A stretch of 35,622 bases of DNA from Actinomycetota bacterium. GTDB lineage: Bacteria > Actinomycetota > Humimicrobiia > Humimicrobiales > Humimicrobiaceae. A model generated the notes under the pieces. The model made no database searches. It saw only the letters and a list, made by a program, of their open reading frames with translations, and was not told the origin of the DNA. Position numbers and translations under genes: made by a program. The DNA lies in contig SOKC01000123.1 in the NCBI GenBank assembly GCA_004376325.1, forward strand, positions 1 through 35,622, read 5' to 3'. This document shows, one piece after another, positions 1 to 30,192 of the stretch (positions are counted from its first letter, which is position 1; each line of letters starts with the position of its first letter).

Positions 1-725
1 CGATTATCATTGTCTCCCATGATCTGGGTACTATTTCTGATTTATGCAGTAAGGTTGTATTTTTAAAAGATGGAGAAATAAAAGATATAGGCAAACCTTT
101 GGTTGTTGTTGCAAAATACAGGGCTTATATTGAGGAGTTGGATAAGAAGAGGATCATTGAACAGCAGAGAGCTGAGAGGAAAAAAATATTTAAGACGGTA
201 ATAGAAGGTAATAGAAAAGTAATTGACGGAGAAGAGATAAGCAAGCTATCAAATTTAAGTGTAAGTGGGGAGACTCTTAATAGGTTTGGAAGCGGGGATG
301 CAGAGATTCAAAATATTAAGCTCCTGGATGACAAAGATAGAGAAATAGACTTCTGCAAGTATGGGGATGATGTAAAGATAATATATGAGGTGTTATTTAA
401 AAAAGAAGTTGAAGAACCTATTTTTGGAATGAGAATTACAGATTTTAAAGGTAATATTGTTTATGGTACCAATACCAGATTAAATAATATTAAGACTGGC
501 ACGTTTAAAAAAGGTGACTTGATAAAAGTAATTTTTAACCAGAAGATAAATTTAATCGGAGGAGCATATTCGGTATCTCCTGCTGTTGGTTATAACGATA
601 ATAAAACCTACTGTGACTGGATTAATGATATGCTTACTTTAAATGTAATACATAATAATAAAGCTGAAGGAATATCAGATTTAAATCCTGAAATAATCAT
701 TAAAAAAACTGATTCTAGAAAATAA
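1..725 (+). CDS. wzt: ABC O-polysaccharide exporter ATP-binding subunit, 3' part (Wzt-like)
   Basis: The ORF track starts this frame at TTG 99, but the frame is open back to base 3 and reads IIIVSHDLGTISDLCSKVVF before that point. This is the end of an ABC ATPase: the H-loop histidine is in VSHD, followed by the usual LKDGEI strand. The gene is therefore 5'-truncated by the window edge, with about 240 residues visible. After the ATPase (to about residue 50) and a charged helix comes a domain of about 150 residues ending DLNPEIIIKKTD. Its length and position match the beta-sandwich C-terminal domain of Wzt proteins, which in known systems recognises the non-reducing end of the O-polysaccharide before export. 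The role would be ATP-driven export of an undecaprenyl-linked chain together with a Wzm permease outside the window. The C-terminal domain is assigned by architecture and context, not by a search. Confidence 0.85.
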   Translation, partial: IIIVSHDLGTISDLCSKVVFLKDGEIKDIGKPLVVVAKYRAYIEELDKKRIIEQQRAERKKIFKTVIEGNRKVIDGEEISKLSNLSVSGETLNRFGSGDAEIQNIKLLDDKDREIDFCKYGDDVKIIYEVLFKKEVEEPIFGMRITDFKGNIVYGTNTRLNNIKTGTFKKGDLIKVIFNQKINLIGGAYSVSPAVGYNDNKTYCDWINDMLTLNVIHNNKAEGISDLNPEIIIKKTDSRK

Positions 726-9158: not shown

Positions 9159-10235
9159 ATGAATTTAGAAAGTCAAAATAAGAAATCAAAAAAAAGGTGG
9201 CTTATACTTAGAATCATAAATATTGTAGTTGTGGTGGGCCTTGGGGTATTTCTTGTTTACTATTTGTTAAATCAGATTGATATAGAAGATATTAAAAGTG
9301 CTTTTATTAATATTTATACACCTTCTCTTATAATTGGTTTAATTCTTATATTCTCAATTGATTTTTTTAGAGCCTATAGGGCAAAAATTTTAATAGGGTC
9401 TGGCAGAATCAGAATGGTTGATATGTTTTTGGTTTCCCTTATACGAAATGGCTTTAACATGGTTCTGCCTGCAAGGACAGGAGAACTATCCTATATTTAT
9501 GTTCTTAAAAGAAAATTTAAATTTCCTGTAGAGATTGGTATTTCAACGCTGATGATTGCACTTGTTTTTGATTTGATCATTGTTTTTTCAATGATTGTCA
9601 TTTCTATAATTATTGTGGGTATAAATAAATATGCTGTTTCTTCTACCAGTGTTATTTTAATTGCTGTAGCACTTCTTATTTCCTCTTTGCTGGTCTTATT
9701 TTATCTGTCAAAATTTGTAGGACTTTTTATTAAAATATTTGATAGAATTTTGTCAAAATATAGAGTAAGTAAAAGTAAAGTTATTCAAAATATATATAAA
9801 AAATTAGTTGAGACCAATAAAAATATTGAATTAATTAAAAAAAGGGGAATATACTGGAAAGTATATTTAATCTCAGTACCTTCTCGAATTTTAAAATATG
9901 CAGCTTATTATTTTTTGATTCATGCAGTACTTAAGCCTATGGGCTTTGGTTTTAATGATCTTTCCTACTGGGTTATTATACTGGCTACAGCAGCGGCAGA
10001 AATATCTGCTGTTCTGCCTACCCATTCCCTTGCGGGCCTGGGTACCTATCAAGGGGTATTTGCTCTTGCATTTATAATGTTAGGTTTTGGTAAAGAGATA
10101 TCTATTATAGTTGGGTTTAGCTACCATATTATAAATTTGATTTTTACTATAGCATGGTGCCTTATAGCAATGGTTATATTAAGCTTACCTGTCTATAGAA
10201 TAAAGGAACAAAAATATCAGGAAAGTGGAAAGTAA
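9159..10235 (+). CDS. LPG_synthase_TM/UPF0104 family membrane protein (flippase-like)
   Basis: A 358-residue polytopic protein with about eight to nine membrane segments. It has the family's conserved loops: LIRNGFNMVLPARTGELSYIYVLKR and, near the C-terminus, AAEISAVLPTHSLAGLGTYQGVF. The family (COG0392) covers the flippase domain of MprF and the C-terminal part of archaeal AglD, and its stand-alone members are often next to polyprenol-sugar glycosyltransferases. The likely role is movement of a lipid-linked sugar across the membrane, which is inferred. It is second in the plus operon, 30 bases after the double glycosyltransferase. It groups by motif with the copy at 25990, not with those at 11091 and 29149. 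Confidence 0.8.
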   Translation: MNLESQNKKSKKRWLILRIINIVVVVGLGVFLVYYLLNQIDIEDIKSAFINIYTPSLIIGLILIFSIDFFRAYRAKILIGSGRIRMVDMFLVSLIRNGFNMVLPARTGELSYIYVLKRKFKFPVEIGISTLMIALVFDLIIVFSMIVISIIIVGINKYAVSSTSVILIAVALLISSLLVLFYLSKFVGLFIKIFDRILSKYRVSKSKVIQNIYKKLVETNKNIELIKKRGIYWKVYLISVPSRILKYAAYYFLIHAVLKPMGFGFNDLSYWVIILATAAAEISAVLPTHSLAGLGTYQGVFALAFIMLGFGKEISIIVGFSYHIINLIFTIAWCLIAMVILSLPVYRIKEQKYQESGK

Positions 10236-11090: not shown

Positions 11091-12059
11091 ATGAATAAAA
11101 AAATAGGAAATATTATAAGAATTGTAGTAAGTCTTTCCCTTCTTTCATTTTTAATTTACAGGAATAAAGATAACTTTGAAAGCATTATAGATAAATTAAA
11201 GGATCTTAATGTAACTTTTTTGGTTATAGCTGTGCTTCTCTATACTTTAGCTTTAGCCTGTATACCATTGAGGTGGGGAATACTGCTTAAAGCTCATAAT
11301 TATTATATTTCAGGTAGTTTCCTGCTGCAGTCTGCATTTATTGGCTTTTTTTATAATAATCTGCTTCCAACGAGTATAGGCGGAGATTTTTATCGTGTAT
11401 ATGATCTTTATAAAAATAAGAATGTACCCATCAATGAAAACATTTCTGCTGTGGTTATGGAAAGAGTCATTGGCAACATAACCGGTATAACTTATTTTAT
11501 ATTTTCTTTTGCTTTTGGTATATTTGGATATCTAACCAGGGGGACTAAAATAGGGCTGGCAATTTCGCTTTTTGTTATTTTATTTTTTTTTACCCTGCTT
11601 TTCAGGCCAAGGCTGTTTAAAATACATGTCCTGCTTGCAAGATATAGAATCTTTTCTAAAATAAGGCCTAAGCTAAAGTCTTTTCACCAAATTCTTGTAA
11701 GTTACAGGTATAAGATTAAACACCTGTCTATAAGTTTTTTTTATAGTTTACTGCTGCAATTAATCTTTATGACCAGTCATTATTTTGTTTCACTGTCCCT
11801 GGGACTTGACCTTAAATTTTATATGTTCATTTTTGCAGTGCCTTTTGCTTCTTTAGCTGCGAGTATTCCTATTTCTATTGGTGGTATTGGAATAAGAGAG
11901 AATGCAATTGTTTTTGCAGTGATGAGTTTTGGTGTGGTGGAAAGTCAGGCAACTCTATTTTCTTTTATTATTTTATTTATTATTTTATTTAATGGACTGC
12001 TTGGAGGGATTGTATATTTATTTAAAAATATTTTTTACAGATCCAGAGGTATAATTTAA
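11091..12059 (+). CDS. LPG_synthase_TM/UPF0104 family membrane protein (flippase-like)
   Basis: A 322-residue polytopic protein with the other variant of the family motifs: GFFYNNLLPTSIGGDFYRVYDLYK in the first half, VVMERVIGN, and AASIPISIGGIGIRENAIVFAVMSFGV near the C-terminus. These match the gene at 29149 closely (GFFFNNFLPTSIGGDVFRTYDAAK; MVPISIGGIGIRENTLVF), so the two are paralogues of one subfamily. The proposed role is transbilayer movement of lipid-linked sugar or phospholipid, by family resemblance only. It is translated three bases after rfbD, with GGA six bases before the ATG. Confidence 0.8.
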   Translation: MNKKIGNIIRIVVSLSLLSFLIYRNKDNFESIIDKLKDLNVTFLVIAVLLYTLALACIPLRWGILLKAHNYYISGSFLLQSAFIGFFYNNLLPTSIGGDFYRVYDLYKNKNVPINENISAVVMERVIGNITGITYFIFSFAFGIFGYLTRGTKIGLAISLFVILFFFTLLFRPRLFKIHVLLARYRIFSKIRPKLKSFHQILVSYRYKIKHLSISFFYSLLLQLIFMTSHYFVSLSLGLDLKFYMFIFAVPFASLAASIPISIGGIGIRENAIVFAVMSFGVVESQATLFSFIILFIILFNGLLGGIVYLFKNIFYRSRGII

Positions 12060-15199: not shown

Positions 15200-16774
15200 T
15201 TATTGTTGTTGATTATAATTTTTTATTTCTGTTACATCAAAAAAGTTATAAGGCTGCCAGTATGGTGAATAATAACATTTATCTTCCAGTAATTCATAAT
15301 CTCCATCAAAATAAATATTAAAAATTAATCTAAAAGTATTAACAGGAGTTATAGAATCATATAAAAGATTGCTACCATTTTGTGGTAAGTAGTATGCATT
15401 TAATATGAATGTACTTTCTCTAAGCATTTCAGCAGTTGGGTAAAGCCATCCAATATTAGCAGGATCTTCCCTATCGCCATGAGGGTCGCCAAGTGTTAAC
15501 CGTGCACCATGATCTCCCTGAAGTACTATAATTGGAGGGACTTCTGATTTTGATAAAATTTCTTCAATAAGAATTTTAAGCTTACTATTTACAAAAATTA
15601 ACTGATTCAAGTATTTTTCCTTATCCCAATATGCGGCTAATTTATATTCAGCTTCAGGAATAAGTTCACCATTAGCACCAAAGAAAAATGGAGGATGAGG
15701 AGTCATTATGTGTGCGAAAATATATTTTGGTCCCTCTATTTGGTGTACTTTGGCAAGATTTGAGAAAGAATATAGCACCTTTTGTATGCCAGAATCAACA
15801 ATAATATATTTCTCAAATGGTTTTAACATGGTTGTTTGAATTAGTAATATATTAAATTCATTAAACCTATTAACTCGAATGCTTATATCTGCATTTCTGT
15901 TTCTATCTGTGGGACCCCAGCCTGAACTATCAAAGTGGACAAACTGATATCCTTTTGAATGTAAAAATTTCCAAACATTACTATTTGTAATCATCTGGTA
16001 AGGTATTGTCCTATCATCAGATTCTAATCCTACCTTATCACTTAGATAATTAATATATTCCATATTAAGTGATGATGCTAAGGATGAGGTAGTCCATGGA
16101 TAATTACACCGGCTTTTAGAAGCTACATAGAAACCTTTTTCAGTTAAAAAATTGATAAATTCATGATTATCATAATCATAAAATTCTTCCAGAGAACTTT
16201 CCCCAGCGTAACCATCAAGAATTATATAATAGATATCTGGTAATTCAGTCAGGCTTTCGGATATAACAGCTTCTCCATCTTGTAATACTATACTGCTGTC
16301 TTCTTGTATATCTCTTGTTTTAAACTTATAGAATCCAATATTTACCAGAGAAAATAAAACCAGGACAACAGCTATCACGTTTAAAATATTACTAAAGTTA
16401 CGTAAATTTTTTTTTGTCCTTATAGTAAAATAAGTACCTAAAATAAATAATATAAGCCAGACAACCAGTAAGTATCTATGCCCGCCAATTACAAAATTAC
16501 CTATTTTAAAACCCTTTATTTGCTCATAAATACGACCGTAAGAAAAAAATAAAAATAAAAATATAGATACAATGATTCCTGCTTTTCTACTATCTTTTTT
16601 AAGGATTAACCATAACAAACCTACAGCAATGATAGTGAAACCTAATATAATAGCTATTGGTATTAAAATTTCAGATAATGAGACTATTGAAAGTTTTCCA
16701 ATATTATAAGAGTAAAGAAATAAAATAGGAAATATAGCAAATAAAAATGGATGAATAATAAATGTTTTTTTCAT
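15200..16774 (-). CDS. Membrane-anchored sulfatase/alkaline-phosphatase superfamily transferase (LTA synthase-like)
   Basis: A 524-residue protein. Five or so N-terminal membrane segments (to about residue 160) are followed by an extracytoplasmic alkaline-phosphatase-fold domain. Metal and catalytic motifs are visible: PDIYYIILDGYAG (metal Asp), NYPWTTSSLASSLN (candidate nucleophile Thr), FAHIMTPHPPFFFG, and VVLQGDHGARL (metal Asp-His). The layout is that of lipoteichoic-acid-synthase and phosphoethanolamine-transferase proteins, which move phospho-alcohol groups from phospholipids onto glycans or lipids. A true sulfatase is less likely since there is no C-x-P-x-R. It is the last gene of the minus set, six bases after the methyltransferase gene. 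Confidence 0.78.
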   Translation of the reverse strand: MKKTFIIHPFLFAIFPILFLYSYNIGKLSIVSLSEILIPIAIILGFTIIAVGLLWLILKKDSRKAGIIVSIFLFLFFSYGRIYEQIKGFKIGNFVIGGHRYLLVVWLILFILGTYFTIRTKKNLRNFSNILNVIAVVLVLFSLVNIGFYKFKTRDIQEDSSIVLQDGEAVISESLTELPDIYYIILDGYAGESSLEEFYDYDNHEFINFLTEKGFYVASKSRCNYPWTTSSLASSLNMEYINYLSDKVGLESDDRTIPYQMITNSNVWKFLHSKGYQFVHFDSSGWGPTDRNRNADISIRVNRFNEFNILLIQTTMLKPFEKYIIVDSGIQKVLYSFSNLAKVHQIEGPKYIFAHIMTPHPPFFFGANGELIPEAEYKLAAYWDKEKYLNQLIFVNSKLKILIEEILSKSEVPPIIVLQGDHGARLTLGDPHGDREDPANIGWLYPTAEMLRESTFILNAYYLPQNGSNLLYDSITPVNTFRLIFNIYFDGDYELLEDKCYYSPYWQPYNFFDVTEIKNYNQQQ

Positions 16775-16780
16775 AATATT

Positions 16781-18172
16781 TTAATTCTCTTTCTTCTTCA
16801 TTAAATACATGGTTCTTTTAGAATCCTTAATATTCTCAGCATTTTTTATAGTAAAATATTTTTTAAATTCAATCTCAAAGTTTTGCTGTGTATAATCAGG
16901 AAAAATATCTTCTCTTGTTGACAGGAGTCTTTGAACCTGAGAGTCGTCTTTGGGGACAAATTCAATGATGAGTGATTTACAGATTGAATTGAAGAAATTT
17001 GCGATTTTACCAATTGGAAGGTTATTAGAAATGGCTAAATGATGAATTAAAGCAAGAGCGAAAGCTGTGTCTGTTGGTCCACGTTCAATAAGAGACATTC
17101 TCTCCTGATTTTCCCAGCCAATAGCAGGACTTGGGTTAGTTAAGTCAAGCAGTAATGGGATAATATTAGTTTCACCCTTTTTAACGCTTCTGAGGTAATT
17201 TTTTTCAACTGCAGCAGGATCGATGTCAAAAGAGATTGTATGTATTCTCCTGTTGCTGGCAATACGACTAAACAAACCATCATTTGCACCGAGATCCCAA
17301 ACAGTTTCTGGATTAATCATATCCAAAAATTTAGCTACAATCTCCTTTTTATGATCAATTGCTGCTGGAGAATAGTTAGTATCTTCATAATAATCAGCCC
17401 ATTCAGTTCCTTTAGCTTTCCAATACATTTTACGGGTAGCAGATTCTAAGCTGTCTATAAGACCCATGAAAGACAGGCGGCTTATTTTATGTCCACCTAT
17501 TTTTACTGCTTTGTCAGCATAGTGTTTTTGGCTTTTGGCGTGAAGATGAATATGAGAAAGCAGTGAAGCCTTAAAACTGGTACTTGATGGAAGAAGAGAA
17601 CTTGCCAGATCTAAGGGTATTCCATCTATAAAAATTCTAAATAATTGATTTAGTCGAATATCTTTATAGCTCATTAGTGCCAGGGGTGCAAGAAAATGCT
17701 GACATACCTGTCTGTATGCAATCCAGGATTGTCCTGGATGATATTTCTCGAAAGAAAGTGTATCAATAAAGGTTGGCCTGCCTTTTCTGAATTGTATATT
17801 ATAAGCGCTACAATCTTTTAAAGTCATTTCAAAGTCCATTGCTATTTTCTGGATCTTAAAAGTGGCTAGTGCTGCATCCTTTAGTTGACTGAAGCACCAT
17901 TCATAAGGATATGATATAAATGGTATGGGCTCAGGTTTTATTATTTTATATGCTTTATCAGGTTCTAAACCATCAATATCAATTTCTTTATGAGGAATAA
18001 GCAAATTTGTATCCACAAGAGTCTTATAAAGACCGGATTCCATAAGATGGTCATAATTTTCTTTATATATGGTATTTATCTGACGGTAAATCGAACCATC
18101 TTTATAAAAAAGAAATCCGCACGGATCCCTAAATGAGCTTGGTTCATTAACACTAGTTTTTATCTTGTCCAT
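16781..18172 (-). CDS. SAM-dependent methyltransferase with kinase-like N-terminal region
   Basis: The tracked ORF starts at 18241, inside the upstream gene. ATG 18172 is chosen because AGGAG lies eight bases before it, giving 463 residues (MDKIKTSVNEPSS). The C-terminal half is a class I methyltransferase: TVWDLGANDGLFSRIAS is motif I (about residues 291-307) and IHTISFDIDPAAVEKN is motif II. The N-terminal half contains MTLKDCSAYNIQF...RPTFIDTLSF; Asp120, Asn125 and Asp137 are spaced like the catalytic D-x4-N and metal Asp of APH/Bud32-type kinases. No glycine loop or ATP-binding Lys is obvious. It could phosphorylate and methylate a sugar, or only methylate. The start overlaps the 78-residue gene by 20 bases and the sulfatase follows six bases later. 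Confidence 0.78.
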   Translation of the reverse strand: MDKIKTSVNEPSSFRDPCGFLFYKDGSIYRQINTIYKENYDHLMESGLYKTLVDTNLLIPHKEIDIDGLEPDKAYKIIKPEPIPFISYPYEWCFSQLKDAALATFKIQKIAMDFEMTLKDCSAYNIQFRKGRPTFIDTLSFEKYHPGQSWIAYRQVCQHFLAPLALMSYKDIRLNQLFRIFIDGIPLDLASSLLPSSTSFKASLLSHIHLHAKSQKHYADKAVKIGGHKISRLSFMGLIDSLESATRKMYWKAKGTEWADYYEDTNYSPAAIDHKKEIVAKFLDMINPETVWDLGANDGLFSRIASNRRIHTISFDIDPAAVEKNYLRSVKKGETNIIPLLLDLTNPSPAIGWENQERMSLIERGPTDTAFALALIHHLAISNNLPIGKIANFFNSICKSLIIEFVPKDDSQVQRLLSTREDIFPDYTQQNFEIEFKKYFTIKNAENIKDSKRTMYLMKKKEN

Positions 18173-18389
18173 CTTCTTTACTCCTGGAAGGTAATCTCTT
18201 AAAGAAACCATAAATCCTGCGCCAGAATATCTTAATTCCAAATGCTCCTCCTACTGCAATAGCTATGATTATCTGAATCATATAACTACCGGTTCCGGCA
18301 TCAAGGTATGCGTAAAGCATGTTAGGAGTTATAAGATAAAAAAAGGTTATGAAACCAAGAGCAGTTAAAAAGGTTTTAAAATATTTCAT
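18153..18389 (-). CDS. Small YLDAGTGS-motif membrane protein
   Basis: A 78-residue protein. A signal-like helix (FLTALGFITFFYLITPNMLYA) is followed by YLDAGTGSYMIQ, then a second helix (IIIAIAVGGAFGIKIFW) and a basic tail (RRIYGFFKRLPSRSKEDG). Small proteins with a YLDPGTGS-type loop followed by a membrane helix occur beside methyltransferase and sulfatase genes in surface-polysaccharide loci, so this is a real gene and not a shadow. Function is unknown; the signal and helix arrangement suggests a small inner-membrane or periplasmic partner of the sulfatase or methyltransferase. GGAG lies five bases before the ATG and an extended -10 lies 26 bases upstream, so this gene heads the three-gene operon. 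Confidence 0.75.
   Translation of the reverse strand: MKYFKTFLTALGFITFFYLITPNMLYAYLDAGTGSYMIQIIIAIAVGGAFGIKIFWRRIYGFFKRLPSRSKEDGQDKN
18181..18185 (-). promoter_or_regulatory. Shine-Dalgarno deciding the methyltransferase start
   Basis: AGGAG on the minus strand, eight bases before ATG 18172 and inside the end of the 78-residue gene. It argues for ATG 18172 over the longer tracked start at 18241. Confidence 0.65.
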
Positions 18390-18415: not shown

Positions 18416-18424
18416 ATTATAACA
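18416..18424 (-). promoter_or_regulatory. Extended -10 promoter of the YLDAGTGS-methyltransferase-sulfatase operon
   Basis: On the minus strand this reads TGTTATAAT, a perfect extended -10, 26 bases before the ATG at 18389, with no good -35. The surrounding 15 bases (18412-18426) are identical to the plus promoter core at 6549-6563. Confidence 0.55.
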
Positions 18425-18546: not shown

Positions 18547-18659
18547 ATTTTATTAGGCATATATTATAGCAAAAATATTTTTATATTAAATTAGTTTTTT
18601 GCTTAATAAAATTCGTTTTTATATAATAGGTTAAATATTTTTTAAAGTAAATGAAGTAA

Positions 18660-25989: not shown

Positions 25990-27024
25990 TTGCCAGCACT
26001 AACTAAGAATAAAAAACTTATAATCAGACTTTTAATAAGCATTACAATTACCGTTTTCTTCATTTATTTTATTGTCAAAAATTTAAATATAAATGATTTT
26101 AAAAACCTTATTAACAACATAAATATCTACTTTATATTAATTGCTTTAAGTATACACACAATATGTTACCTTGTAAGAAGTTTAAGAATTTTAGTTTTAC
26201 TTAAAATCAAATTTTCTGAATTTAATAATATTTTCTTTACAGTCTCAAGACATTATATTTTAAATAAAATCCTTCCTGTAAGAATAGGAGAATTATCTCT
26301 TGTATACTTTCTTAAAAATGAACAAGAAATATCTTATACTAAAGGTTTGGGAGCATTACTTTACTTAAGAATTTTAGATTTACTAGCTGTGCCCTTATTT
26401 TTTATTGTAGCTTTTTCAATCAACTTTTCATCCTTTTCTAACTCAAATAACATAATTATATTACTTATCTTCTTAATTCTCTTTATAATGCTATTTTTTG
26501 TTTTTATTTTCTTAGGTAAGATTTTAAACTTAATTTTAAAATTTCTAAAATTATTACCAAAAAAAATAAAGTGGCTTGAAAAAAATATTTATTTTAAATT
26601 TTTAGAAAAATATAAAAATTTAGCTGATGAAATCAACAAATTTATTAAACTCAAAACAAATATAAAAGTAATTATTCTAACAATATTAAATAGATTATTA
26701 AACTCCCTGGTAGCATACACTATCTTTTTTGGATTTGGAATAAGTATAGGATTTATTAATTTTATAATAGGCTCTACCCTATCCATACTAACCGAAGCAT
26801 TACCAGTTAGTGGAATTGGTAGTTTTGGCACTTTTGAAGCTGGTTGGACACTAGGATTTGTATTAATCGGTTATAACCAGAAGCTTTCATTATTAACAGG
26901 ATTTGGAGTAAACATAATATTTTTTATTTTTACCATATTCCTATTAATTATTAGCTTCTTCTTATCTAAATATAGGGAAATTATTACAAGAAAGTTTCTA
27001 AAATTGGTCAAAGGTAATAGTTGA
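25990..27024 (+). CDS. LPG_synthase_TM/UPF0104 family membrane protein (flippase-like)
   Basis: A 344-residue polytopic protein. The conserved loops SRHYILNKILPVRIGELSLVYFLK and LTEALPVSGIGSFGTFEAGWTLGF place it in the same subfamily as the 9159 gene, and in a different one from 11091 and 29149. It starts at TTG 25990 with no clear Shine-Dalgarno, 12 bases after DUF2304, so translation may be coupled. As the third gene of a GT2 - DUF2304 - UPF0104 set it could flip the polyprenyl-phospho-sugar made by the GT2; this is an inference from order and family. Its last bases (TTGA) overlap the longest form of the next ORF. The gene is very AT-rich (two sampled 60-base lines have 9 and 12 G/C). Confidence 0.8.
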   Translation: MPALTKNKKLIIRLLISITITVFFIYFIVKNLNINDFKNLINNINIYFILIALSIHTICYLVRSLRILVLLKIKFSEFNNIFFTVSRHYILNKILPVRIGELSLVYFLKNEQEISYTKGLGALLYLRILDLLAVPLFFIVAFSINFSSFSNSNNIIILLIFLILFIMLFFVFIFLGKILNLILKFLKLLPKKIKWLEKNIYFKFLEKYKNLADEINKFIKLKTNIKVIILTILNRLLNSLVAYTIFFGFGISIGFINFIIGSTLSILTEALPVSGIGSFGTFEAGWTLGFVLIGYNQKLSLLTGFGVNIIFFIFTIFLLIISFFLSKYREIITRKFLKLVKGNS

Positions 27025-27057
27025 TTATAGATGATGGTAGTTCAGATAACACAGGTA
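27011..27057 (+). pseudogene. GT2 active-site relic at a recombination junction
   Basis: Upstream of the DUF11-like gene, in frame with it, lies IIDDGSSDNTG, which is the GT2 nucleotide-binding signature. One base upstream in another frame the codons read KVIV, so deleting a single g would give KVIVIIDDGSSDNTG. The string tatagatgatgg also occurs in the full GT2 gene at about 25038. A chance match of this quality is unlikely. It looks like a leftover of a GT2 gene lost at this junction. Confidence 0.45.
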
Positions 27058-28889
27058 TGAGTGGTATTAGTAAATTTTTAAAATATAATAAAAGATGGAT
27101 TTATCTTGCAGTTATAATTGTTATTATAGCTGCTGCAGCATCATATTCTACATATTATTATTTTAAGGTTTACCTGACAAGGCCAAATTTTGATGATGAG
27201 TCATTTAATTTTATATCCAGTGATTCAAACGAATATGTAAAACCCGGGGAACAAATAACATATATAATAAATTATAAGAATACGGGAAACAGGGATGTAG
27301 ATAATCTGGAAATAGAGTCAAAGGTACCAGAACATGCAGTTTTTATATCATCAAACCATGATGAAATTTTAGAAAATACCAGTGGAGCATTAACTTTTAA
27401 AGTTGGTGATGTTGAAAAGGATAGAAAGGGTACAATAGCTTTTACAGTTGAAGTAAACAAACCACTGGATGATGGTACTTTGATTGTATTTGATGGAGCG
27501 AAATTTAATTATAAGATTGGCCAGGATACTTTTAATAGAGAGGTCAGTGAAGATTTAAGTAATAAAGTTGAAAGCAGTCCCGATCTAAATAACTTTGATT
27601 TAGAAGCTGTTGATATAAATGGCGGAGTATTAAGATTAGGTGACATAATACAATATAAACTGGTAGTGGAAAATACTGGCGATATGAACGCTGCTAATGT
27701 AGAAATCAAAAGTAATTTATCAAAAAATGTAACTATAGTTGAAAGTTCTATTACTGATTCAGGTGAGTATAAGAGTAGTAGTGTCTTATGGAATATTGAT
27801 AATTTAGAAATAAATAAACCTAAAACTTTTTCATTTAAAGTCATAGTAAATGATGATTTAACTTCTGAAGAACTTATTACTAATAGTAGTGCCTTAAAAT
27901 ATGGGTCTGATGTTGTCATTGAAAAATCAGTAGAAGAAAAACTGAGCCTTTTTACTGATTTAACTACGTCAGAGGCATTTTTATATGATGTAAATGGTGG
28001 GCATCTTTGGGCTGGTGAGACCATAAATGCAAAAATTGTCATTAGAAATACTGGTGAAAAAGCAGAAGAAAGTTATCGGCTTATTTGTCCTACACCAGGG
28101 GGAGCAACTTATATCAGCAGGTCAGGTACTGCTGAAGGAATTAGCTGGAGTGATGATATAAGAGGACTGATTTGGGACTTAAAGAATCTGGGAGTGGGGG
28201 AAGAAAAAGAAATAATTTTTAATATGAAGGTAAATGAAAGTTTGGTTAATTCAGGTGGGGTAATAACTACCGATTTTAAGATTGAAAGCAGTAGTGGAGA
28301 AATAGAAATACCGTCCAAAAGTATAAATGTTAGAGGGCGTGTTAATATGACTATCGTAGCGATGGGTGATTCTTTAATAACCAAGTCTAATTGGGTGCAA
28401 ACGTTTGATGAACTTCTGGAAGCTAATTATCCATATGCAGATTATAATACGATTGCAAGTGCAAAGGGTGGTGAAATGGCTCGTAACGGTTATGCAAGAT
28501 TTGACAGCACAGTTGCAGTTCATAATCCACAAATAATCATAATAGCTTATGGGACTAATGATGCTGGCGTTGGACTTTGGAATTTCAGAGACAATCTGGA
28601 AGGTATTGTGATTAAGTCAAAGAATTTAGGTGCGAGAGTGTTTATAAATCTTATTGGTCCTATTGACTGGCCGGGGAAAGAAGATTATCCTAAATATAAT
28701 GATGAGATTAGACAAATTGCTGCCAGAAATGGTGCTGTTGTTATAGATGTATTGACTCCTCTTTCACAAAACCCAGGGGGATATTTTGTTGATAGAATGC
28801 ATTACAGTTCCGCTGGTGCTTCAGTTGTAGCACATACAGTATTTAGTTATGTCTCTCAATATCTGGGTGATATTGGTCAGAGGCTGTAA
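27058..28889 (+). CDS. Membrane-anchored DUF11-like repeat protein with C-terminal SGNH hydrolase
   Basis: About 610 residues from ATG 27058 (MSGISKF). The tracked TTG start at 27021 would add a GT2-like peptide; it does have AAAGG six bases upstream, so the start is not certain. One N-terminal helix (WIYLAVIIVIIAAAASYSTYYYF) anchors the protein. Three repeats of about 120 residues follow, each opening with a DUF11-like phrase (VKPGEQITYIINYKNTGN; LRLGDIIQYKLVVENTGD; LWAGETINAKIVIRNTGE). The last 180 residues are an SGNH hydrolase: AMGDSLI, NTIASAKGGEM, IIAYGTNDAG and DRMHYSSAG. It probably acts outside, with the repeats as a stalk, on acylated glycan or peptidoglycan. Flanked by the relic GT2 and by a small membrane peptide. 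Confidence 0.82.
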
Positions 28890-29148: not shown

Positions 29149-30192
29149 TCATGATTTACTGTTAGATAGTTTTTTAGTGGTTGAATGTTTTATATAATTA
29201 GGCCTTACACTATACGTGATACCCCCAATTATTCCAATAAATATTAACATTAAAAATATTAACAGGGCGCATATGGCAGCTTGCTCACTACCTACTCCCA
29301 TTGCTGTTATAATAAAGACCAGAGTATTTTCTCTAATTCCTATTCCTCCAATTGAAATAGGGACCATAGCAATGATAGTCACCACTGGAACTATAAATAT
29401 AAAGGCGGTTAAATTCAAATTAATTCCTAAAGATTTCGCAGCGAGGAAATAATTTAATATAACTGCGAATTGGAGTAAAAAACTATATATCAATACCCTG
29501 ACAAGAACCCATTTAAATTTTTTAAAACTTAAAAAAGTAAAATAAATATTGGCTAATTTTTCTTTTACTTTCTTTAAAAATTTTATTTTATTTATTAGTT
29601 TATTTAACCGGAGTATGGAAGGATTTAGTATAAGAAATGCAATGATAATACATATTATAAAGAATATTATTACTGGAATTATAAAAGACCGATTTCCAAT
29701 TGCTGTAAATCCTAAAAATAGTGCTATGATAGCATAAGTTGAAGCACTTATAATACCTGAAAATCTTTCTACTATAATTATTGAGGCGGATGTCTCAATC
29801 GGTATATTAGCTTTTTTAGCTGCATCATAAGTTCTAAAAACATCTCCGCCTATACTTGTAGGTAGAAAATTATTAAAGAAAAAACCTATGAGAACTGTGA
29901 GAGTTAAGGTAGTGGTACCAAGTTTTACTTTTTGAGTTCCAAGTAAGGTGTTCCATCTGACAGCAGTAATCCATATGCCAAAAATATGTGTGGACAGAGA
30001 AAGTATTAGCAAAGGCTTATTTACAGATTTTATAATTTCAAGGGCACTTCTTATATCCTTAAACTGTGTTTTTACAAGAAAAACAATTAATGAAACACTA
30101 ATTATTATTCTAACCAGCAGGAGTATTAGTTTTTTATTTTCTCTGTAGAAGGATATAATTCTGTTTTTCATTTTTTTATTTATTATTCTCAA
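29149..30192 (-). CDS. LPG_synthase_TM/UPF0104 family membrane protein (flippase-like)
   Basis: A 347-residue polytopic protein with eight to nine helices. GFFFNNFLPTSIGGDVFRTYDAAKKANIPIETSASIIIVERFSG and MVPISIGGIGIRENTLVFIITAMGVGSEQA match the 11091 protein nearly segment for segment, so both belong to one subfamily. It is the last gene of the six-gene minus operon and begins with a TTG directly after the stop of the acyltransferase gene. An ATG at 30171 (MKNRIISF) is an alternative start without a clear Shine-Dalgarno. Proposed role: transbilayer movement of a lipid-linked glycan precursor, by family resemblance only. Confidence 0.8.
   Translation of the reverse strand: MRIINKKMKNRIISFYRENKKLILLLVRIIISVSLIVFLVKTQFKDIRSALEIIKSVNKPLLILSLSTHIFGIWITAVRWNTLLGTQKVKLGTTTLTLTVLIGFFFNNFLPTSIGGDVFRTYDAAKKANIPIETSASIIIVERFSGIISASTYAIIALFLGFTAIGNRSFIIPVIIFFIICIIIAFLILNPSILRLNKLINKIKFLKKVKEKLANIYFTFLSFKKFKWVLVRVLIYSFLLQFAVILNYFLAAKSLGINLNLTAFIFIVPVVTIIAMVPISIGGIGIRENTLVFIITAMGVGSEQAAICALLIFLMLIFIGIIGGITYSVRPNYIKHSTTKKLSNSKS

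Follow-up and report, generated by a model that had tools for sequence, protein, structure and literature searches.

The locus described here encodes what appears to be a three-part module of the NoeA-NoeB type, and we see about an even chance that its role is to add and handle a phosphate-containing and possibly methylated group on a glycan or lipid destined for the cell surface. The module lies in a 35,622-nucleotide stretch of contig SOKC01000123.1 from an Actinomycetota bacterium (hereafter the window) and consists of a small membrane protein (S), a NoeA-family protein and a NoeB-like transferase (Table 1). In the mechanism that we propose, the N-terminal kinase domain of NoeA would phosphorylate a membrane-associated substrate in the cytosol, and its C-terminal domain would methylate. 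S, with its YLD(P/A)GTGS motif facing outward and its basic tail in the cytosol, would tie NoeA both to the membrane and to NoeB, which would then transfer or remodel the phospho-group on the outer face via T228. We infer the order of these steps from gene linkage, gene fusions, folds and conserved residues, which are themselves observed or modelled directly. The literature found reports no enzymatic activity for any member of the family.

Table 1. Features of the window that bear on the S-NoeA-NoeB module
Feature	Position	Strand	Remark
S	18153..18389	-	78-aa membrane protein
NoeA-family protein	16781..18172	-	463 aa
NoeB-like EptA/LtaS-type transferase	15200..16774	-	524 aa
S/noeA reading-frame overlap	18153..18172	-	20 nt
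Possible extended -10 TGTTATAAT	18416..18424	-	upstream of S; weak, near chance
Wzt C-terminal domain	99-725		Wzt_C PF14524, E 2.4e-34

The sequence-only reading had placed three open reading frames here and had taken them as a single operon encoding parts of one system, all of which was borne out. The reading frames of S and noeA overlap, noeA and noeB are spaced by 6 nt (16775-16780), and both S. meliloti and genomes related to the host repeat the S-NoeA-NoeB order, well above chance; the three genes are one operon, and membership of one system is supported. The overlap suggests translational coupling, and overlaps or near-zero gaps between S and noeA were found in most homologous loci of an 80-locus survey. 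The extended -10 element that had been cited for the operon is present, as is a second match upstream of S (TGCTATAAT, 18563-18571), but the window contains 11 instances of the pattern where 6.0 would be expected, and a promoter scan of this AT-rich window was no richer than scans of shuffles, which leaves the promoter detail weak and near chance level.

The host assembly (1.33 Mb, 95% complete) was searched for LpxC and Omp85, and because neither was found, the organism is probably a single-membrane bacterium (monoderm). Although nothing points to symbiosis in this organism, its S-noeA-noeB genes correspond to part of a known nodulation operon. In one genome of the same genus (G001) a glycosyltransferase island adjoins the trio as it does in the window, and in another (G006) the trio sits in a different context on a 13.7-kb contig. 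Other features of the window include four LPG_synthase_TM (PF03706) proteins (9159-10235, 11091-12059, 25990-27024 and 29149-30192), whose genes sit among glycosyltransferases, sugar epimerases and a radical SAM-SPASM gene in an unusual, dense envelope-glycan island. The gene at 27021-28889 encodes a GDSL esterase that has DUF11 repeats and is probably exposed at the surface, and a HicB-like antitoxin gene (788-1012) overlaps a 76-aa ORF, possibly HicA, within 788-1239.

Judged by sequence comparison, the middle protein is a NoeA homologue and a member of the NoeA-NoeB family, an identity that the sequence-only reading had missed. A tblastn search of plasmids aligned it to S. meliloti NoeA with 34.4% identity over 97% of the query (E 2e-64) and found closer relatives in Singulisphaera, Gemmatirosa and a deltaproteobacterium. 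Homologous loci (80 in genome_contigs) came from many phyla and one archaeon, and covered both monoderms and diderms; a scan of viral_contigs found no relatives. None of the three window proteins matched a Pfam or NCBIfam family above cut-off, and phmmer found no match to them in the PDB. A divergent NoeA-like ORF of 539 aa (G071:C25:148010-149140), which aligned as two separate segments, comes from a genome without an S match and is possibly a decayed or diverged copy.

Rhizobia that nodulate alfalfa also carry the module. In S. meliloti and Rhizobium the gene order is nodL, an ORF of 82-84 aa, noeA and noeB. The S. meliloti small ORF (82 aa) reads PAHAYLDPGTGSMLVQ and is homologous to S, so that the window trio matches, gene by gene, the tail of the nodL-(82 aa ORF)-noeA-noeB operon (pSymA, nod box n5). 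The two loci share the order S-noeA-noeB, a NoeA homologous over its full length (34%) and a NoeB whose catalytic residues align, whereas the NoeB proteins are only about 20% identical, the window host is likely a monoderm, and the NodL neighbour and the legume context belong to S. meliloti alone (no NodL was found beside the trio within the window). Both noeA and noeB were reportedly described in 1995 as host-range nodulation genes. Their function in S. meliloti is known only genetically (PMC4053727, PMC9048898): the phenotype is one of host-range nodulation, read as Nod-factor modification (PMC9048898), and noeA is naturally truncated in the nodulation-poor strain M162 (PMC4053727). These genetics fit a secreted or surface target, without identifying which. 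In 2022, the NoeA/Lani_1194 family was called a family of kinase-methyltransferases with conserved neighbours (PMC9758233). Lani_1194 of Legionella belongs to the same family as the window NoeA, likewise has a kinase followed by a methyltransferase, and has among its neighbours the alkaline-phosphatase-fold Lani_1195/NoeB, as in the window; the text on Lani_1194 in that paper has no small membrane protein, S-NoeB fusions, or phosphonate and Glyphos_transf contexts (PMC9758233).

The third protein had been read as a membrane sulfatase or LTA-synthase-type enzyme, and its predicted fold and conserved residues agree with the latter type. Like EptA, MCR-1 and LtaS, NoeB has five N-terminal transmembrane helices and an alkaline-phosphatase-superfamily domain, together with a Thr nucleophile and D/H metal ligands, and the top PDB folds for its model (pLDDT 90.1) were EptA, MCR-1, EptC, PbgA and LtaS. 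Identity to EptA, MCR-1 and LtaS is about 10-14%, however, and the S partner is a feature of NoeB. The putative nucleophile T228 is Thr in 65 and Ser in 8 of 74 homologues, and D187 (72/74), H355 (72/74), H360 (70/74) and D421 (70/74) are similarly conserved. S. meliloti NoeB keeps equivalents of D187, T228, H355, H360, D421 and H422, which we take to be the metal ligands and Thr nucleophile of the EptA/LtaS group. The Pfam Sulfatase family (PF00884) was detected in 27 of 38 NoeB homologues, with the window NoeB itself below the cut-off. Taken together, fold and residues predict that NoeB is an EptA/MCR/LtaS-type membrane transferase. The formylglycine motif C/S-x-P/A-x-R of type I sulfatases had no match in the window NoeB.

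NoeB lies directly downstream of NoeA in 47 of the 69 loci with room for it. Among the 18 genomes with NoeA and S but no adjacent NoeB, 13 hold a strong NoeB homologue elsewhere and NoeB was not detected in five; most of the unlinked copies have no S alongside. S-NoeB pairs occur without an adjacent NoeA in five loci (L133, L162, L163, L164 and L165), and an S-NoeB fusion lies directly behind a YidC-Glyphos_transf protein in two others (L132 and L166). The parts encoded by these two genes form a single ORF of 1377 aa in L167 (4461-8594, genome G296), with YidC-like, CDP-glycerol-type phosphotransferase, S and sulfatase-superfamily segments. In L164 (5523-12044, genome G202) homologues of S and NoeB follow a phosphonate operon comprising a PEP mutase/cytidylyltransferase and a phosphonopyruvate decarboxylase (both above NCBIfam cut-offs), an Fe-ADH and a Glyphos_transf protein. 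These arrangements suggest that in S-NoeB lineages a cytosolic phosphate- or phosphonate-adding enzyme may take the place of NoeA: a CDP-glycerol-type phosphotransferase would act in front, once with a phosphonate pathway. It is mainly because such enzymes appear to replace NoeA before S and NoeB that we propose the mechanism above, an argument limited to about four lineages, and they suggest as the common principle a cytosolic phosphate adder, S and an outer-face phosphotransferase.

A lipid-centred version of these events is possible, although we think it rather unlikely. NoeA would phosphorylate and methylate a polyprenol or phospholipid head group, S would flip or present it, and NoeB would use the lipid as donor. 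EptA/LtaS-type enzymes draw the group that they transfer from phospholipids, monoderm and diderm bacteria as well as an archaeon carry the module, which has no ties to a glycan locus, and the window holds a UbiA-family gene besides the LPG_synthase_TM proteins. Against this stand the S-NoeB lineages with Glyphos_transf or LicD, which are usual for glycan polymers. The S. meliloti nodulation phenotype, in its reading as Nod-factor modification (PMC9048898), also points away from a lipid head group. Because the module's immediate neighbours are heterogeneous, they indicate no substrate; the enrichment among them was limited to topoisomerase I, probably a matter of synteny within one lineage, and a few glycosyltransferases.

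For the cytosolic step that we propose, the relevant claim of the sequence-only reading was that a kinase-like domain precedes the methyltransferase, and this was largely right. The kinase-like domain covers about residues 13-230 and the class I SAM methyltransferase domain about residues 250-460 (DLGANDG at 293-299, HH at 377-378). The kinase-type D120-x4-N125 and D137 that had been pointed out are present and, like R30, do not vary in any of 94 homologues, some with identity as low as about 30%; D293, G295, N297 and G299 of methyltransferase motif I (DxGxNxG) are likewise found in all 94, and S. meliloti NoeA keeps the conserved catalytic residues. In the AlphaFold model (pLDDT 90.5), DSSP assigned two strands, helices, two strands, a hinge, a long helix and the D120-N125 loop, followed by two strands, D137, more helices and then the methyltransferase fold. 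This predicted order fits, at high pLDDT, that of a kinase fold, from N-lobe sheet, hinge and helix E through the catalytic loop to beta7-beta8 and the DFG-type Asp, in agreement with published models (PMC9758233). A fold search of the PDB was less telling, since the methyltransferase half dominated it: methyltransferases came out on top, WbdD being matched across about 225 columns that most likely belong to its methyltransferase part, and the best 50 matches listed contained no kinase-only chain. The kinase assignment is thus supported by residues, by secondary-structure order and by the published analysis of Lani_1194/NoeA, in which R38 of Lani_1194 was assigned to the kinase Lys position (PMC9758233). 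Compared by profile with sets of APH and UbiB kinases, the domain showed no significant similarity. Pseudokinases usually lose some catalytic residues of the D/N/D/Lys-position type, and the invariance of D120, N125, D137 and R30 across the 94 homologues weakens the suggestion, made at the outset, that this domain is a pseudokinase. We consider it improbable that it serves as a pseudokinase or allosteric scaffold with only the methyltransferase active, even though the glycine-rich loop is absent, Arg replaces the usual Lys and no ion-pair Glu is identifiable (PMC9758233).

In the window S, a signal-peptide-like segment ending LYA precedes YLDAGTGSYMIQ, whose motif is predicted to face outward; a single strong transmembrane helix comes next, and the tail is basic and aromatic. 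The family consensus is similar: the hydrophobic N-terminal segment ends A-x-A, the motif after it reads Y-[LI]-D-P-G-[TS]-G-S-Y-x-x-Q, and the transmembrane helix leads into a basic tail. Because several Anaerolineales S proteins start MHFTPLPYLDPGSGS, without the first helix, mature S probably spans the membrane once and exposes its motif on the outside. S adjoins NoeA in 78 of the 78 genome_contigs loci where its position is visible (the other two of the 80 begin at a contig edge that cuts the position off). In 54 further S loci, 48 copies lie beside NoeA and the other six adjoin a NoeB homologue or are joined to one in a fusion, which leaves no copy without either partner. Across 297 genomes of the window's phylum, 34 have S and 30 of these also have a strong NoeA match; in the remaining four (G050, G238, G287 and G296) S lies inside a long NoeB-like ORF, G238 being assigned by an ORF length equal to that of G296. 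A literature search for the motif YLDPGTGS returned nothing, and the published text found on noeA/noeB makes no mention of the small ORF of the S. meliloti operon. S is the most constant part of the module and is absent from the published descriptions found.

The near-invariance of S35 and T/S33 in the motif and the constant presence of an enzyme partner could also mean that S is itself the substrate, its tail being modified by NoeA or its exposed GTGS by NoeB as a membrane-anchored acceptor. This seems very improbable to us: NoeA is predicted to be cytosolic, whereas the motif should be exposed outside, and conservation of the tail is poor except at its aromatics, with no invariant Ser/Thr. 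We keep S as the link between NoeA and NoeB and, as a tentative extension on which we would not rely, suggest that it may be the defining subunit of an unrecognised class of surface phosphotransferase systems. S would then be a small membrane hub, common to monoderms, diderms and archaea, that couples interchangeable cytosolic adders (the NoeA kinase-methyltransferase, CDP-glycerol-type transferases or phosphonate pathways) to an outer EptA/LtaS-type enzyme, and the rhizobial nodL-noeA-noeB operon would have in it a fourth gene that has been overlooked.

The sequence-only reading had suggested possible O-chain capping, with NoeA as a WbdD-like terminator whose methyl phosphate caps the chain and is read for export by the C-terminal domain of Wzt. 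Kinase and methyltransferase do share one chain, as in WbdD of E. coli O9a, and there is precedent in two unrelated methyltransferase-kinase terminators, WbdD and K. pneumoniae O7 ORF6 (PMC3482155, PMC11231755). The Wzt C-terminal domain at the left edge of the window is also real, but the gene is incomplete, its ATPase part having been lost at the contig end, and the fragment lies about 15 kb from the trio. WbdD, moreover, has its methyltransferase at the N terminus, a coiled-coil ruler and a cap read by Wzt (PMC3482155, PMC11231755) on an ABC-exported O-PS, whereas the domain order of NoeA is the reverse, and the protein ends within the methyltransferase sheet at residue 463, with no coiled-coil ruler and no WbdD-type C-terminal coiled coil and membrane helix found. 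No similarity between NoeA and WbdD was found beyond the methyltransferase fold. With Wzt_C as the marker of export linkage, only 1 of 80 homologous loci contained it, NoeA and Wzt_C showed no association across 61 genomes (Fisher p 0.47), and in G006 the trio contig lacks Wzt_C, the genome's matches being on other contigs. Capping linked to Wzt was rejected on these counts and, given also a host without detected LpxC and Omp85 and a family that occurs in an archaeon and in monoderms, mostly outside polysaccharide loci, we regard a WbdD-like role as extremely improbable.

The preferred reading is a phosphotransfer module, and the part of it worth following up is the constant small partner S with its fusions. 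In the literature found, the function of noeA and noeB has stayed at the level of hypothesis since the 1995 report. If S, NoeA and NoeB are one phosphotransfer system, the S. meliloti operon would offer a simple laboratory test of a module that reaches across bacteria of many phyla and an archaeon, and S would serve as a marker for finding further such modules.
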